25,108 bases of DNA from positions 1-25,108 of the IMG/VR virus record IMGVR_UViG_3300036876_000303. The stretch is one strand, 5' to 3'. The notes under the pieces were generated by a model. That model was not told the DNA's origin and did not search any database. It saw only the letters and a program-made list of their open reading frames with translations. The stretch is from a virus. Made by a program: the position numbers and the translations under genes. Shown one piece after another: positions 2,298 to 7,649 of this stretch (within the stretch, counting starts at the first letter, position 1; every line of letters begins with the position of its first letter).

Positions 2298-2346
2298 GTT
2301 GAAGAAGAACTCTAACGATGTGGGAACGATTGAGTGGGAAACACAA

Positions 2347-4797
2347 ATGACAGAAGAACTCAGGGGGCCGGGGGCTGAATCCGGCCCAATCACAACACAA
2401 CCCATTTTACCATGCGGCCCCAACAGCGCAAATAGCTTTTCTACGCAAATCGAATGGGCTGTAGCGTATGCGCAAGCCGGTTGGTGCGTGTTGCCGTTGC
2501 ATGAACCGCAGGGGTCCGGCTGTTCCTGCGGAAAGCCTGATTGCGGCAAGCCGGGGAAGCATGCACGGGTCCGCGAATGGCAGAAGGCATCATGTGACCC
2601 GGCCACGGTTGCCGCTTGGTGGAAGCAGTGGCCGAATGCAAATATCGGCCTACGGCTGGACGGTCTGATTGTGCTGGACGTGGACGGGGCCGAAGGGTTT
2701 GAATCGCTGGCCGCAATGGAAGCGGAACACGGAATCCTGGACGCGTGCGCCCGCCAGCGGAGTGGTAGCGGCGGGTGGCACTACCTGTTTGAAGCGGTGC
2801 CGGGCATGGAAAAGCGTATCAAGTTTCGGCCCGGTCTTGACCTGTTGACGGGGGCCGGGTGCTATATCGTGTGCGCGCCAAGCCTGCACGCCAGTGGGGG
2901 CCGTTACGAATGGGTTGACGAACACAGCCCGCTGTCCGCGCACCGGGACAAGATACCCTTGACGGTTCCCCCAGCGTGGCTGCTGCGCGCCGCAACGAAT
3001 GAGAAGGCCAAGACCACAGCCCGCGCCAAGCAACCCATTGCGGAACGCGTGCCCGCTGAACGCATGCTGTCCATGGCACTAGAAAAGATCAAGGCTGGTG
3101 AAGCGCGCAACAACACCGGGCTATGGTTCTTTGCCCAACTGCGTGATAACGGCTACACCAAGGACGAAGCGCTGCTATCGTTGCGTGACTGGGTGAACGC
3201 TGCGAATGATGCCGCGCCCGGCCAGCACCGGTACACCATGCAGGAAGCTGAAGCCAGCTTGCGCAGCGCGTACAGCAAGGACGCCCGTGACCCGTGGGAC
3301 GAAGATGACAAGCCCAGCCACGCGGACATCTTGCTGAAGCTGATTGACGATTTCGAGTACTTCAAGTCCGGCCCGGCCAATGATGGCTACGTCCGCATGG
3401 TGATTGGTGACCACCACGAAGTCTGGAAGGTAGACGCGAAAAGCCCACGGGTCCGCGAAGTCTTGACGCATCGCTTCCTGACGCAGAAGGACCGCGCACC
3501 CAGCCGTGAAGCCTTGAACACCGTGATTGATACTATATCGGCAAAGTGCGGGGCCGGGCCGAAAGTTGACGTACACGTGCGTTTCGCACGCGGGCGTGAC
3601 GCGATCTACCTGGACATGTGTGATGACCAGTGGCGCGCCATCGAAGTGACCAAGGACGGGTGGCAGGTGGTCCAAAACCCGCCCGTGCTGTTCAGGCGTG
3701 GCGCGGGCGCGCTGCCCTTGCCAGTGCCGGTGAAAGGCGGAACCCTGGACCCGCTGCGCCCGCTGCTGAACTGCGGGGATGACGCGCAATGGTGCCTGAT
3801 GCTGGCGTGGCTGGTGGGTGCCTTCTTACCGGAAGGCGCGTTCAGCCATCTGGTGCTGCAAGGCGAACAGGGTAGCGCCAAGTCAACCACGGCCCTGCTG
3901 CTGCTGTCCATGTTGGACCCGAGTGACGCGGGCCTTTCAGCGCCCCCGAAAGATGAAACAGACGCTACGGTGTCCGCGATGCACGCGGGCATTCTGGCGT
4001 ATGACAACCTGTCCGGGTGCCGGGCTGAAATGGCTGATGTGTTTTGCAGGTTCAGCACCGGGCAGGGCTACAGGACGCGGACGTTTTACGAAAACCTTGG
4101 AATTACCGTTGCCAGCGTCAAGCTGCCGATACTGCTGAACGGGATTGATTCAACGGTCATGCGTGGCGACCTGCTGGAACGGTCCATCACGCTGAAGTTG
4201 CCGCGCATCACCCCAGAGAATCGGCTTACGGAACAAGGAATATGGGCTGACTTTGAACGTCTGCATCCGGGCTGCTTGGGTGCCCTGCTGGATTCGGTAA
4301 GCACAGGGCTGCGGAATCTACCGAACACCAAGCTGACGGACGCGCCGCGCATGTCAGACTTCTGCACGTGGCTGGTTGCATGTGAACCGGCCCTACCGTG
4401 GAAGCCGGGCGAATTCATCGCGGCCTACAGGGGCAAGCTGGAATCTGCCAACAGCGACCTTGCGGAGAATGACTCCGTAGCGTCTGCGCTCATTGAATGG
4501 GTGGAACAGTCTACCAGTCCGGGCACCGGTCAACTTGTCACTGCTAAGGACCTGCTGATTGCTCTGAATGAAATCACGCATGAGTGGCCGAAGGACCTGC
4601 GCCACTGGCCCCTTAGCCCGGAAGCCCTGGCCCATCGTCTGGTGCGCCTTGCCCCGGTCCTGCGGGCGCAGGGGATTGAAGTGCGCAAGTGGCCACGCAC
4701 TAATAAGGCGCGGTCACGTTGGGAAATCTGGCGGGATGCGCCGCAAGGGTACCTGCTTCCGCGCTTCATTGTGGATGCGTGCAAAGAGGCTGCCTGA
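2347..4797 (+). CDS. Phage replication protein: Prim-Pol primase/polymerase fused to a helicase
   Basis: An 816-residue bifunctional replication protein. Residues about 36 to 215 match the Prim-Pol (archaeo-eukaryotic primase-like) domain: the Cys-rich GCSCGKPDC (58-66), the metal-binding DVD in IVLDVDG (D111, D113), the GGWHYLF histidine (H145) and the GAGCYIV...PSLH core. A primase C-terminal helical segment follows (about 235 to 315). Residues about 470 to 640 form a helicase/ATPase module with Walker A GEQGSAKST (506-514), Walker B ILAYDN (549-554) and an arginine-bearing MRGDLLERS (605-613). Such proteins prime and unwind phage or satellite DNA at their own origin, in the cytoplasm. The ATG at 2347 is preferred, with GAGTGGGAA upstream; a TTG at 2299 would add 16 residues. 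The repeat-rich region directly downstream is a likely origin. Glu codons are overwhelmingly GAA (43 to 6). Confidence 0.9.
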   Translation: MTEELRGPGAESGPITTQPILPCGPNSANSFSTQIEWAVAYAQAGWCVLPLHEPQGSGCSCGKPDCGKPGKHARVREWQKASCDPATVAAWWKQWPNANIGLRLDGLIVLDVDGAEGFESLAAMEAEHGILDACARQRSGSGGWHYLFEAVPGMEKRIKFRPGLDLLTGAGCYIVCAPSLHASGGRYEWVDEHSPLSAHRDKIPLTVPPAWLLRAATNEKAKTTARAKQPIAERVPAERMLSMALEKIKAGEARNNTGLWFFAQLRDNGYTKDEALLSLRDWVNAANDAAPGQHRYTMQEAEASLRSAYSKDARDPWDEDDKPSHADILLKLIDDFEYFKSGPANDGYVRMVIGDHHEVWKVDAKSPRVREVLTHRFLTQKDRAPSREALNTVIDTISAKCGAGPKVDVHVRFARGRDAIYLDMCDDQWRAIEVTKDGWQVVQNPPVLFRRGAGALPLPVPVKGGTLDPLRPLLNCGDDAQWCLMLAWLVGAFLPEGAFSHLVLQGEQGSAKSTTALLLLSMLDPSDAGLSAPPKDETDATVSAMHAGILAYDNLSGCRAEMADVFCRFSTGQGYRTRTFYENLGITVASVKLPILLNGIDSTVMRGDLLERSITLKLPRITPENRLTEQGIWADFERLHPGCLGALLDSVSTGLRNLPNTKLTDAPRMSDFCTWLVACEPALPWKPGEFIAAYRGKLESANSDLAENDSVASALIEWVEQSTSPGTGQLVTAKDLLIALNEITHEWPKDLRHWPLSPEALAHRLVRLAPVLRAQGIEVRKWPRTNKARSRWEIWRDAPQGYLLPRFIVDACKEAA

Positions 4798-5092
4798 CGG
4801 GTGCCGGTTGTGACGGTTGGTGACGGTTGCTATTTACGAACCGTCACCGTCCATGCGCCTGAATCGCAAGGGGTCTACGTAGACGCGTGCCGGTTGTGAC
4901 GGTTTTCCTTCTCTCTTAGAGGGAGAAGGGGTAAGGGAGTGTGTCACGCACTGCCCCTGCGGACTTCCTTCCCCCAGCGCGCCCCCTAAGAGTTAGGCAA
5001 AAAAACAGTCATTTCCGTCACTCCGTCACGGCTCTTTGGAATCAATGCGTTGCGGAGCGTCGGTTTCAGGGGCGTGACGGTTAGACCGTCAC
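4795..5092 (+). repeat. TGACGG repeat cluster, candidate replication origin (iteron-like)
   Basis: At least nine copies of TGACGG or its complement lie in about 300 bases. Direct copies are at 4795, 4811, 4821, 4897 and 5075; complement (CCGTCA) copies are at 4841, 5015, 5023 and 5086. Two copies are embedded in an exact 18-base direct repeat, GTGCCGGTTGTGACGGTT, at 4801-4818 and 4887-4904. An 8-base inverted pair, GTGACGGT (5074-5081) and ACCGTCAC (5085-5092), has a 3-base spacer. The cluster starts on the stop codon of the Prim-Pol/helicase gene and contains no gene. Repeats beside a replication gene are typical of phage and plasmid origins. That role is inferred. Confidence 0.55.
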
Positions 5093-5151
5093 CAACCCGC
5101 CCGCGAATCCGGGTGAAGTGGACAGCATTAAGAAACGTTCATGCACCCTAA

Positions 5152-5179
5152 TTCAATACTGTAGAGTACTTTGCATAAT
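5152..5179 (+). promoter_or_regulatory. Possible sigma70-type promoter for the packaging genes
   Basis: TTCAAT (5152-5157) and CATAAT (5174-5179) are separated by 16 bases in an AT-richer patch that stands out from the GC-rich surroundings. It is about 200 bases upstream of the small-terminase-like gene start, leaving a long leader containing GC hairpins. Neither hexamer is a perfect consensus, so support is weak. Confidence 0.3.
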
Positions 5180-5272
5180 AGAGGAAACGTGAAAGCCGCT
5201 AAACGCGCGGCGCGGGTGGCGTACAAGGATCTGCCACCCAGCCCCAACAATATCGGTTATACAGAATCATCA

Positions 5273-5325
5273 CCGGCCCCCCAGGGGCCTTCACGGGGCC
5301 GGGTAGGGTCAACCATCCTGCCCGG
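5273..5325 (+). other. Two adjacent GC hairpins in the leader of the small-terminase-like gene
   Basis: The first hairpin pairs CCGGCCCC (5273-5280) with GGGGCCGG (5295-5302). The second pairs 5299-5309 with 5315-5325: 11 base pairs counting two G-U pairs, with the 5-base loop CAACC. They share bases 5299-5302, so they are mutually exclusive in RNA. No T-tract follows. Alternative hairpins of this kind can act as attenuators or RNA control elements; here that is only an inference. Confidence 0.35.
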
Positions 5326-5380
5326 CCCGTCACAACCCCGCTGGTATCTCACGGACACCAGCACCCATAGGAAGACGCAC

Positions 5381-5923
5381 ATGTCTGAAGAGACGAAACC
5401 AGCCACCCAGGTGGCAAAGAAAAACCCCGGTCACCGATTTCACGAAGGTCACCCCAGGTTCGGGGGCAAGAAAAAGAACACGGCTGCTACGGCCAGAGCC
5501 ATGGCCAGCGAGCTTGGATGCGACCCGCTTGAGTTCATGATGAAAATTATCAACGCAGACACCATCGAACAGACCGTGATTGTAGATGGCAAAAAGAAGC
5601 GCGTGGAAGTTGCCATACCGCTGGACACCAGATTGGACGCGGCCAAGACAGTGGTGAACTACCTGTACCCGCGTCTGACGGCACAGCAGGTCAGCGGCCC
5701 CGCTGACCGCCCCATTGAAACGGTGACCTTCGATATCACCAAGCTGCTTCAGGACCCAGTTGCGGTTGAAGCGGCCCAGAAGCTGGCGCTGATGATGGCC
5801 GCGCAGGACACGGCACAAGCACCGGCCAGAATCTGCGGCCCGGCTGATGAATCCTGCGCGCGGCCCGCTTACGATCCATCGGAAGTGCTCAGAGATCACA
5901 ACGGCCACTATCTGCCGAAGTGA
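5381..5923 (+). CDS. Putative small terminase subunit-like phage protein (180 aa)
   Basis: The ATG at 5381 has AGGA at 5369-5372; the open frame back to TTG 5171 is not convincing. The N-terminus is basic and Gly/Lys-rich (HEGHPRFGGKKKNTAATAR, about residues 23 to 41). A helical segment, ASELGCDPLEFMMKIIN, follows. The central part ends with LDTRLDAAKTVVNYLYPRL, which resembles small terminase-like or terminase-associated phage proteins that recognise DNA for packaging. The C-terminus is unremarkable. Small terminases usually sit directly before the large terminase, but here the large subunit is absent and a DNA-binding ORF and a truncated portal follow. Glu codons are 8 GAA to 3 GAG, the left-part style. 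It could instead be an unrelated DNA-binding accessory protein. Confidence 0.55.
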   Translation: MSEETKPATQVAKKNPGHRFHEGHPRFGGKKKNTAATARAMASELGCDPLEFMMKIINADTIEQTVIVDGKKKRVEVAIPLDTRLDAAKTVVNYLYPRLTAQQVSGPADRPIETVTFDITKLLQDPVAVEAAQKLALMMAAQDTAQAPARICGPADESCARPAYDPSEVLRDHNGHYLPK

Positions 5924-5946
5924 CGTGAAGTGTAAACGGACAACTT

Positions 5947-5966
5947 GGGGCCGGACACCCGGCCCC
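5947..5966 (+). terminator. Terminator-like hairpin after the small-terminase-like gene
   Basis: A perfect 8-base-pair GC stem, GGGGCCGG (5947-5954) and CCGGCCCC (5959-5966), closes an ACAC tetraloop. It is extended by a T-G and a T-A pair and followed by GAACTTCTT. The stem is strong but the U-tract is poor, so termination is possible but not certain. The arms are the same 8-mer used in the hairpin at 5273-5302. Confidence 0.35.
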
Positions 5967-5986
5967 GAACTTCTTGGAGAGAATTC

Positions 5987-6346
5987 ATGAGACGAACCTT
6001 TGACCGGTACGGCGTGGACATTTCGCCCTTCCCTGCCTTCTGTGAACGGTATGCTAACGGCATGCCGTTGCGCCCGCCCATGGCCCAGCGCCCGGCCCGT
6101 GCCTCTATCGCCACGATGCCCGCACCCCGCGTGCCGGAACCCGCGCCCGCTGTGGTTTCCTTGGATGTCAGCGATGAAGCAGCCGTGGCGCGTCAGATTC
6201 GGACGTGGTTCAGCGCTGGCCGGACGCCCCGCGCCATTGCCGCAAACCTGAACCGCTTGGGCGCGCCCGTCAATCGTGGTTCCCAGTGGTACGCAAGCAC
6301 GGTGAAAGTCATACTGCTTCATGATCCATGCCCACGGTCTGCATGA
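5987..6346 (+). CDS. Small protein with a serine-recombinase-type DNA-binding segment, possibly cut at its 3' end
   Basis: The ATG at 5987 has GGAG at 5975-5978; a TTG at 5945 is less likely. The 119-residue protein has a Pro/Ala-rich N-terminal half. From about residue 65 it shows a helix-turn-helix like the Recombinase domain of large serine recombinases: ARQIRTWFSAGRTPRAIAAN, then LNRLGAPVNRGSQWYASTVKVIL. No resolvase catalytic domain (active-site Ser with its Arg residues) is present, so it is not an active recombinase alone. Similar stand-alone DNA-binding modules occur in phages near packaging genes. The last residues (LLHDPCPRSA) run into the suspected junction, and the stop at 6344-6346 lies inside the portal ORF. 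The natural C-terminus may therefore be lost. Confidence 0.5.
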   Translation: MRRTFDRYGVDISPFPAFCERYANGMPLRPPMAQRPARASIATMPAPRVPEPAPAVVSLDVSDEAAVARQIRTWFSAGRTPRAIAANLNRLGAPVNRGSQWYASTVKVILLHDPCPRSA

Positions 6347-7649
6347 CCTAAGTTACGTGAAATCAACAGCGCAACTTTTTCTGAAGAAATGGAACCGATG
6401 GATCAGGGAATCGGATGTCGAGTACGACCCGAACAACCCGGCATCCGGCCAGACTGACTTCTACGGTCAGCAGATGATCATCGCACGCGAAGTGATGGAG
6501 GCTGGCGAGGTGTTCGTCCGGTTCCGCCCGCGCCCACGGAAAGAAGGCCTGGCGGTACCGCTGCAACTGCAGTTGATCGAAGCGGAGCAGTTGCCTCTGT
6601 GGCGCATGTCCTCGCAGGAGATGCCTACGGACAACCGCGTGCGCTCCGGGATCGAGTTCCGGCCGGATGGACGGCGCGCAGCGTATCACTTCTGGCGCGC
6701 GCATCCCGGCGAGACGATGTTCTTCCCGCTCGAGGCGATGTCCGTCGAGCGTGTGCCAGCGACAGACGTGCTGCACGTTTACAAGCCGATCCGCGCCGGC
6801 CAGTTTCGGGGCCAGCCGTGGCTGACATCGGTGCTCGCGAAGCTCTACGAACTGGAGCAGTACACCGACGCCGAGATCGTCCGCAAGAAAGTCGCGGCGA
6901 TGATCACCGGGTTCATCAAGCAGGTCAGCCCGGACAATCCGATCATCCCGCCCGATCAGCAGCAGAACGGTCCAGGACAGACCGACCCGGGCGCGCAGAT
7001 TTCGAAACTCGAACCAGGAACGTTCCCTGTTCTGAATCCTGGCGAGGAAGTGGAGTTCGCGGAGGCGCGCGACAGCGGGGATTTCAAGGCGTTCATCCGG
7101 ACGTGCCTCCAGGCGTTCGCGAGTGGCGCGGGCCTGGCGGAATACCAGATCAGCGGGGACCTGTCGGGAATCAACTACTCGTCGATCCGCGCGGGCCTGC
7201 TGGAGTTTCGCCGCAAGTGCGAGCAGTTCCAGTATTCGGTTTTCACTTTCCAGGTGTGCCATCCGATTTATCGCCGGTGGCTGCGGGAGGCCATGCTCGC
7301 GTTGGTGTTCGGCGTCGAGTTCCTGACCGCTTACGACAAAGATCCCGAGCCGTTCGAGGAAGTGCAGTGGGTCACGCCGGGCTGGCCGTGGGTCGATCCC
7401 GATAAGGACATGAAGGCCGCCGAACGCGCGATCCGTGACGGTCTTTCGACGCGTTCGATTGAATGTGCCGAGCAGGGGTACGACGCGGCCCTTATCGACT
7501 CACAGCAGAAATCCGACAACGACCGCGCCGACAAATATGGTCTCTCCTACGACTCCGATGGGCGCAAGATCCTCACCGGGCGCAACGCCGGCATGACTGA
7601 GGAAGAGATCGAGAAAGACGGAGTGAGCGGAAAGATGGAGGCGCAGTGA
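6321..7649 (+). CDS. Phage portal protein, lambda family, N-terminally truncated
   Basis: The 442 residues match the lambda gpB-type portal family, the dodecameric ring at the prohead vertex through which DNA is packaged. Recognisable features are KKWNRWIRESD, the segment DFYGQQMIIAREVMEAGEVF followed by VRFRPRPR, IEAEQLPL, GIEFRPDGRRAAYHFW, RVPATDVLHVYKPIRAGQFRG and DLSGINYSSIRAGLLEFRR. Family members are usually about 500 or more residues, with roughly 100 residues before the KKWNRW region. Those are missing here. In the same frame a stop lies at 6303-6305, so the native start cannot be upstream. The first ATG (6321) has no ribosome binding site and overlaps the previous gene, so it is a by-product of the junction. 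The 3' end overlaps the protease start (GTGA). Glu codons are 25 GAG to 12 GAA, unlike the genes to the left. Confidence 0.88.
   Translation: MIHAHGLHDLSYVKSTAQLFLKKWNRWIRESDVEYDPNNPASGQTDFYGQQMIIAREVMEAGEVFVRFRPRPRKEGLAVPLQLQLIEAEQLPLWRMSSQEMPTDNRVRSGIEFRPDGRRAAYHFWRAHPGETMFFPLEAMSVERVPATDVLHVYKPIRAGQFRGQPWLTSVLAKLYELEQYTDAEIVRKKVAAMITGFIKQVSPDNPIIPPDQQQNGPGQTDPGAQISKLEPGTFPVLNPGEEVEFAEARDSGDFKAFIRTCLQAFASGAGLAEYQISGDLSGINYSSIRAGLLEFRRKCEQFQYSVFTFQVCHPIYRRWLREAMLALVFGVEFLTAYDKDPEPFEEVQWVTPGWPWVDPDKDMKAAERAIRDGLSTRSIECAEQGYDAALIDSQQKSDNDRADKYGLSYDSDGRKILTGRNAGMTEEEIEKDGVSGKMEAQ

Follow-up and report, generated by a model that had tools for sequence, protein, structure and literature searches.

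A candidate iteron replication origin behind the Prim-Pol/helicase gene of a probable acidobacterial prophage

The DNA analysed here, from a virus of soil bacteria (IMG/VR record IMGVR_UViG_3300036876_000303, positions 1 to 25,108; this whole stretch of 25,108 nt is called the window) carries a gene for a protein that joins a Prim-Pol domain to a helicase, and at the end of this gene begins an array of short repeated words, or iterons, in both orientations (Table 1). Based on the enrichment of the word, the conservation of its core in the related locus L418 and the presence of arrays with the same core beside some distant homologues of the gene, we propose that the array very probably acts as an iteron origin of replication and is bound by the putative initiator encoded next to it, as a first-pass annotation of the same DNA had suggested. 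Such an origin would be of a known kind, and its most interesting part is the change of word throughout the array between two close relatives.

The iteron array and its counterpart in a close relative

The nine TGACGG hexamers in both orientations listed by the first-pass annotation are all present, with starts from 4795 to 5086 (4795, 4811, 4821, 4897 and 5075 on the plus strand; 4841, 5015, 5023 and 5086 on the minus strand). The cluster had been placed in non-coding DNA after the replication gene; the placement holds, except that the hexamer at 4795 overlaps the stop codon (TGA, 4795–4797) and is thus partly coding. The repeat unit is better written as GTGACGGTT. Two further sites, at 4801 and 4887, read GTGCCGG and look like degenerate iterons because each is aligned with an intact word in L418. 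In total the array holds ten words, eight GTGACGG and two GTGCCGG, in two groups (4801–4902 and 5015–5092). We also confirmed the exact 18-base repeat GTGCCGGTTGTGACGGTT at 4801 and 4887, and found the 8-base inverted pair GTGACGGT/ACCGTCAC at 5074–5081/5085–5092. The 12-base palindrome GTCTACGTAGAC does occur at 4873–4884, but it is not conserved in L418; it was therefore rejected as a functional centre and is probably incidental.

When enrichment was checked against shuffled sequence, the 373 nt from 4798 to 5170 contained eight copies of GTGACGG, with 0.10 expected, a count reached in none of 5000 dinucleotide shuffles (shuffle maximum 2). Eight copies of any hexamer, or of any 7-mer, were likewise absent from 2000 shuffles of this interval, and any 8-mer at the observed six copies appeared in 1 of 2000. 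Intervals of 300 nt starting outside 4481–5169 hold at most three TGACGG each, compared with eight at the array; over the whole window, the hexamer occurs 39 times against 19.7 expected. With regard to a long stem-loop 3' of the Prim-Pol gene, as in the pRN1 origin, the fold of 4795–5170 was better than those of 100 shuffles (z −3.55), a result that oppositely oriented iterons would give as well, and no Rfam match reached the gathering threshold in 4500–5500.

L418, from a metagenome-assembled genome (MAG) of Terriglobia, carries a gene 86% identical to that of the window (a figure for the best segment). Each of the ten window iterons is aligned there to a word in the same order and orientation. 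Within the TGACGG cores 58 of 60 positions are identical (97%), compared with 198 of 275 other aligned intergenic positions (72%), 38 more being gapped. The base before the core is identical at none of nine sites, all nine changing from G in the window to A in L418, with the tenth set against a gap, and in the L418 array every one of the 13 words is ATGACGG. Moreover, the array persists in L418 behind a 140-aa open reading frame (ORF; 6463–6885, without PHROG match) that separates it from the primase gene. A core that is kept while its flanking base changes uniformly is what co-evolution with one reading protein would predict, and suggests that the words are read by a single protein whose preference shifted.

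Table 1. Coordinates of the array and of the features around it in the window
Feature	Position	Strand	Basis or remark
Prim-Pol/helicase gene, presumed initiator	2299..4797	+	832 aa from TTG
C-terminal winged-helix domain, presumed iteron reader	4474..4734	+	residues ~726-812, AF2 models
TGACGG overlapping stop codon	4795..4800	+	motif count
degenerate iteron GTGCCGG	4801..4807	+	faces ATGACGG in L418
iteron GTGACGG	4810..4816	+	motif count, L418 alignment
iteron GTGACGG	4820..4826	+	motif count, L418 alignment
iteron GTGACGG	4841..4847	-	motif count, L418 alignment
degenerate iteron GTGCCGG	4887..4893	+	faces ATGACGG in L418
iteron GTGACGG	4896..4902	+	motif count, L418 alignment
inter-group spacer	4903..5002		edges form imperfect inverted repeat (21 nt, 76%)
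30-nt AT-rich segment (0.67 A+T)	4985..5014		precedes right iteron group
iteron GTGACGG	5015..5021	-	motif count, L418 alignment
iteron GTGACGG	5023..5029	-	motif count, L418 alignment
iteron GTGACGG	5074..5080	+	motif count, L418 alignment
iteron GTGACGG	5086..5092	-	motif count; last base faces gap in L418 alignment
candidate unwinding element	5121..5185		AT-richest 60-nt windows of 25 kb (0.65, step 5) start at 5121 and 5126
next gene, PHROG 15261 (no assigned function)	5381..5923	+	ATG 5381 with AGGA before it, likelier than TTG 5171

The predicted initiator and its genomic setting

The protein carries a Prim-Pol domain (PF09250, residues 54–212, E 6.5e-33) and a Walker A motif, GEQGSAKS, at residue 522; its start is more likely ATG 2347 than TTG 2299 because the sequence MTEELRGPG found there is common to L418. 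An AlphaFold2 (AF2) model of residues 401–832, built from a 31-row alignment (pLDDT 86.1, pTM 0.82), takes the form of a helicase ending in a helix-strand-helix-helix-strand-strand winged helix. The top solved match via this model was the Rep protein of the Staphylococcus aureus pathogenicity island (SaPI) SaPI5 (7ola; Z 15.7, rmsd 5.7, 328 residues); further solved matches were asfarvirus and poxvirus primase-helicases and Cch of the staphylococcal cassette chromosome mec (SCCmec; Z 13.7). For the helicase half, the top Foldseek match was the C-terminal region of NrS-1 polymerase (6k9c, E 1.3e-7). Modelled alone, the C-terminal part reached a pLDDT of 71.3 and matched a RepE-type plasmid initiator first (Z 7.3) and the plasmid initiator pi at Z 6.6, both with iteron DNA, with subunits of SMC5/6 ranking between the two. 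Such Z scores are middling, and a common fold alone may explain them. The iteron of mini-F RepE also begins TGTGAC. By predicted fold only, the protein is an initiator-type helicase with a C-terminal winged helix.

Between the window and L418, protein identity is 0.46 over the first 52 residues and 0.73–0.75 over residues 729–832; the blocks that span residues 53–728 lie at 0.83–1.00, apart from a single block at 0.77. The predicted recognition helix is identical in the two proteins whereas the wing differs (RKWPRTNKA in the window, RRLPRNTKA in L418).

A contig of a Bryobacterales MAG (L417) contains the first 8794 bases of the window without change. Since this MAG and that of L418 both belong to Acidobacteriota, the host of the prophage is probably an acidobacterium. 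The window encodes a portal protein (PHROG 21, E 7.6e-83, ORF from 6321), a major head protein (PHROG 1005, E 1e-80) and an S49 protease, and because of its own portal and head genes we regard the element as an ordinary prophage rather than a satellite of the phage-inducible chromosomal island (PICI) kind. Directly before the portal gene, a 133-aa ORF (5945–6346) contains a partial Recombinase domain (PF07508). In L417, the phage genes are preceded by an isocitrate/isopropylmalate dehydrogenase gene (PF00180). A tRNA-Asn-like sequence, two of its bases masked, was read by eye beside the left prophage end (~1290–1360; ARAGORN made no call) and is possibly the attachment site. Past the phage genes on the 39-kb contig (L498, 8216–16611) are genes of DUF2779/RNase_H_2, weak PLD-like and SNF2/ResIII-type helicase character, perhaps a defence island.

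Arrays behind other primase-helicase genes

A motif scan for three close copies of GTGACGG returned at least 120 loci. Among the 120 matches listed, 95 clusters lie inside ORFs of at least 90 aa and 25 outside, and GTGACGG clusters were therefore rejected as specific to origins. Many clusters within ORFs of the viral contigs L006–L125 are spaced by 6 or 12 nt, as coding tandem repeats would be. Pfam assigned nine of ten large ORFs beside the 25 non-ORF clusters to primase/helicase families and one to terminase, in a set that left out large ORFs beside other clusters, such as L015, L044 and L059. A primase/helicase-like ORF was detected in 23 of the 120 listed loci, and for 16 of them the distance from its 3' end to the following cluster is 3 to 352 nt; seven of the 16 represent one D5 family.

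Loci were also fetched by protein, taking the best 80 per search. This gave 290 loci, including two copies of the window gene, and 173 were kept after redundant loci, those in which the 3' end of the gene was absent and those with less than 400 nt downstream had been dropped. In each class, the share of genes followed within 500 nt by an 8-mer at five or more copies was compared with that of other intervals of the same loci. As the class seeds came from motif-bearing loci (for PrimPol the window, L019 and L058), and these seeds and a window copy were counted, the class fractions should not be read as those of randomly sampled loci. Arrays followed the gene in 58 of 65 DUF5906 loci (1 of 797 other intervals), 20 of 36 PrimPol loci (3 of 433) and 17 of 54 VapE loci (9 of 669). 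For D5 the figures were 1/18 vs. 1/242, and 5/18 vs. 8/242 at four copies or more, the arrays being short; the density of GTGACGG in this class, before removal of redundancy, was 4.34 per kb after the gene and 0.23 further away. Placement of an array after the gene was thus observed in four primase-helicase classes, and strongly in two. The words themselves vary widely between loci, and the idea that GTGACGG is shared by phage primases in general was therefore rejected.

Alternating purine/pyrimidine runs of 14 nt or more, often resembling CGCGCGCATGTGCGCG and prone to form Z-DNA, occur within 400 nt after the gene in 57 of 65 DUF5906 loci, compared with 9 of 373 other intervals, and by the same test in all 18 D5 loci, compared with 2 of 88 (set L127–L206, L287–L366). 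In the few arrays viewed by eye, the run lies between two iteron groups. The window array contains no such central element, its longest alternating run being 8.

Seven named phages were hand-picked from the match lists. The array follows the gene in S1 of Stenotrophomonas, phi105, PG1 and Aminay; AcaML1 has a weaker array after the gene (one other interval of its locus also reaches 4), in Presto the repeats are visible by eye, having been missed by the filter, and Zeta1847 has no array. The repeats behind the phi105 primase gene (HWA84_gp40) read TGTTACT. In S1 (L514, NC_011589.1), where TGTGCGG is found 11 times in 500 nt, the annotated gp2 (2454–2804) covers most of the iteron array and for this reason may be a spurious coding sequence. 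None of the open-licence papers listed as literature matches surveyed iterons downstream of primase genes in phages.

A scan with the helicase plus C-terminus returned 137 relatives; the best 80 included 78 new ones, and 28 were nonredundant with enough downstream sequence. Arrays with GACGG in common and other letters before it, most of them with one prevailing word, are found at L446 (CTGACGG, 10 of 11 words), L449 (two words, TAGACGG six times and GAGACGG three times), L420 (CGGACGG, all five), L421 (mixed, CGGACGG in three of seven) and L019 (identical to L404; GTGACGG in seven of ten), as in the window and L418. At a threshold of four copies per 600 nt, GACGGT was found downstream of 4 of 28 homologues and in 2 of 273 other intervals (Fisher p 8e-4, for a core picked after the arrays had been seen). 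Homologues are present in 14 of 396 sampled genomes of Acidobacteriota, one being the genome that holds L417; among the others, TGACGCT forms an inverted 3+3 array in L509, and GTGACGG occurs three times in L510. The same core thus recurs after homologous primases, a check set out in the first-pass annotation, in L418 and in some distant homologues, but most of the distant homologues have no array. Neither of the two outcomes that would have refuted the first-pass reading, absence of enrichment and absence of conservation in relatives, was obtained.

Competing readings, the proposed origin and known systems

The words could instead be operators of a regulator of the late operon, or the initiator might use them to repress transcription. 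The array does lie in a noncoding gap of ~580 nt, from the stop codon to ATG 5381, ahead of the structural genes, and operator binding is also known of plasmid initiators, among them RepE (complex with operator DNA, 2z9o). However, neither a promoter of sigma-70-like type nor a terminator was found in 4600–5500 (other promoter types would be missed), and the placement of arrays tracks the primase gene rather than a shared downstream operon. Usual operators also have fewer sites than the ten words, in both orientations, that are spread here over 290 nt. We consider a purely regulatory role improbable, and operator use would be compatible with use as an origin.

Slightly less probable again is a role in packaging, in which the small subunit of terminase would recognise the repeats as a pac/cos start site. 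Head genes follow the array in the window, the S1 array is closely followed by genes for the small and large terminase subunits, a large-subunit gene lies ~2.3 kb after the L421 gene, and the motif-selected cluster L105 adjoins a terminase gene. Nevertheless, the scanned ORFs of the window, a part of all its ORFs, included none recognisable as a terminase small subunit, and the pair of ORFs scanned from the stretch between the array and the portal gene gave no terminase match. The array is followed in L421 by an ORF without match and then a ParB-like/methyltransferase protein, in L446 by an 81-aa ORF without match, in L420 by an ORF without PHROG match and in L449 by one with a pilin-like N-terminal motif, while the next genes encode a polynucleotidyltransferase in AcaML1 and a hypothetical protein and a nuclease in phi105. 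Because the genes after the array vary, both the packaging and the operator explanations are weakened; the neighbour common to the arrays is the primase-helicase gene. Chance expansion of a short word without specific function, for which the listed clusters within ORFs might speak, is already largely excluded, as the sites of the window and L418 match one by one, with cores far better conserved than the other aligned bases, and drift would not predict conserved cores together with a uniform flanking change.

Several observations weigh against an origin at the array. The stretch between the iteron groups (4905–5013) is only 45% A+T, compared with 38% for the whole window, with 67% in the 30 nt at its end, and the AT-richest stretch lies outside, from 5121. 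Cumulative GC skew, proposed in the first-pass annotation as a check, lent no support: across the window and the rest of the 39-kb contig (G001) the curve makes no major turn at the array and shows just a minor local dip past 5 kb. In the motif-selected loci L058 and L093 the cluster precedes the 5' end of the primase gene, and Zeta1847, the single isolated phage to turn up with a related helicase, has no array. A 7-mer repeated at least five times per 600 nt was seen in 5 of 41 homologues vs. 21 of 335 control intervals; with most helicase homologues lacking an array, plain repeat abundance fails to separate the helicase family. As for the protein, MCM helicases reach Z 14.0 on the ATPase core, leaving SaPI5 Rep ahead by less than 2 Z units, a search with the single protein gave no sequence match to a solved initiator, and the best 60 of 76 rows of a profile search were ABC transporters and a few other P-loop proteins, with no solved initiator among them.

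On balance we favour the replication origin. The region from 4795 to ~5185 would serve as the origin of an Acidobacteriota prophage, its GTGACGG words being bound by the Prim-Pol/helicase through the C-terminal winged helix. What would happen beyond placement and conservation we infer from SaPI Rep and its relatives: helicase rings may assemble on the oppositely oriented groups of words, the DNA would melt nearby, perhaps at the AT-rich 4985–5014 or 5121–5185, and the Prim-Pol domain, to judge from its family, would make the first primers. More tentatively, and with appreciable doubt, iteron origins at the 3' side may be a common module of temperate phages with several types of primase, in which the word acts as a fast-switching private code, serving to separate replicons or to evade parasites. 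One such switch, from GTGACGG to ATGACGG, would then be captured by the pair of the window and L418, with the wing reading the first base.

To our knowledge, the replication origins of most temperate phages are unmapped. If arrays 3' of primase-helicase genes are origins, these could be read from sequence alone, in laboratory phages such as Bacillus phage phi105 and in uncultured phages. The window/L418 pair would further offer a direct test of a joint change of specificity in an initiator and ten or more sites.

Several known systems resemble parts of this arrangement. The NrS-1 phage polymerase is alike in the fold of the helicase half. ORF904 of pRN1, as described in PMC4234260, also combines a Prim-Pol, a superfamily 3 (SF3) helicase and a winged helix, with an essential 166 bp downstream of its gene, but pRN1 requires a 100-nt stem-loop; the same paper reports that repeats of phage BIP-1 were judged not to be an origin, a stem-loop being favoured instead. 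In the phage-inducible chromosomal island-like element (PLE) of Vibrio cholerae, the DNA-binding domain of the initiator RepA and the origin covary between variants (PMC8263062), which recalls the window and L418, although PLE RepA belongs to the RepA_N family and is not a predicted helicase or primase (PMC7145576), and its iterons measure ~30 bp (PMC8263062).

Closer parallels come from staphylococcal elements. According to PMC7581432, SCCmec Cch2 binds, through its C-terminal domain, repeats just downstream of its own gene, and a primase partner prefers the same region; Cch2 differs from the window protein in having a separate primase-polymerase, three 5-nt iterons and a staphylococcal cassette as its setting. 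The C-terminal domain of SaPI Rep recognises an iteron origin directly downstream of its gene (same paper), and the pri-rep-ori module of SaPI/PICI elements shares with the window an origin 3' of the initiator gene, two iteron groups and a helicase with a C-terminal origin-binding domain (PMC6092414 and PMC7581432). In position only, the window array begins at the stop codon, and that of L418 is displaced by one ORF. The window differs in that its Prim-Pol is fused to the helicase, that the element is a prophage encoding portal, protease and capsid proteins of its own, and that AT-rich stretches lie inside and beside the array instead of forming one clear AT-rich centre. Cumulatively, the loci fetched by protein and the named phages suggest that phages, too, have an arrangement like that of SaPI/PICI elements.

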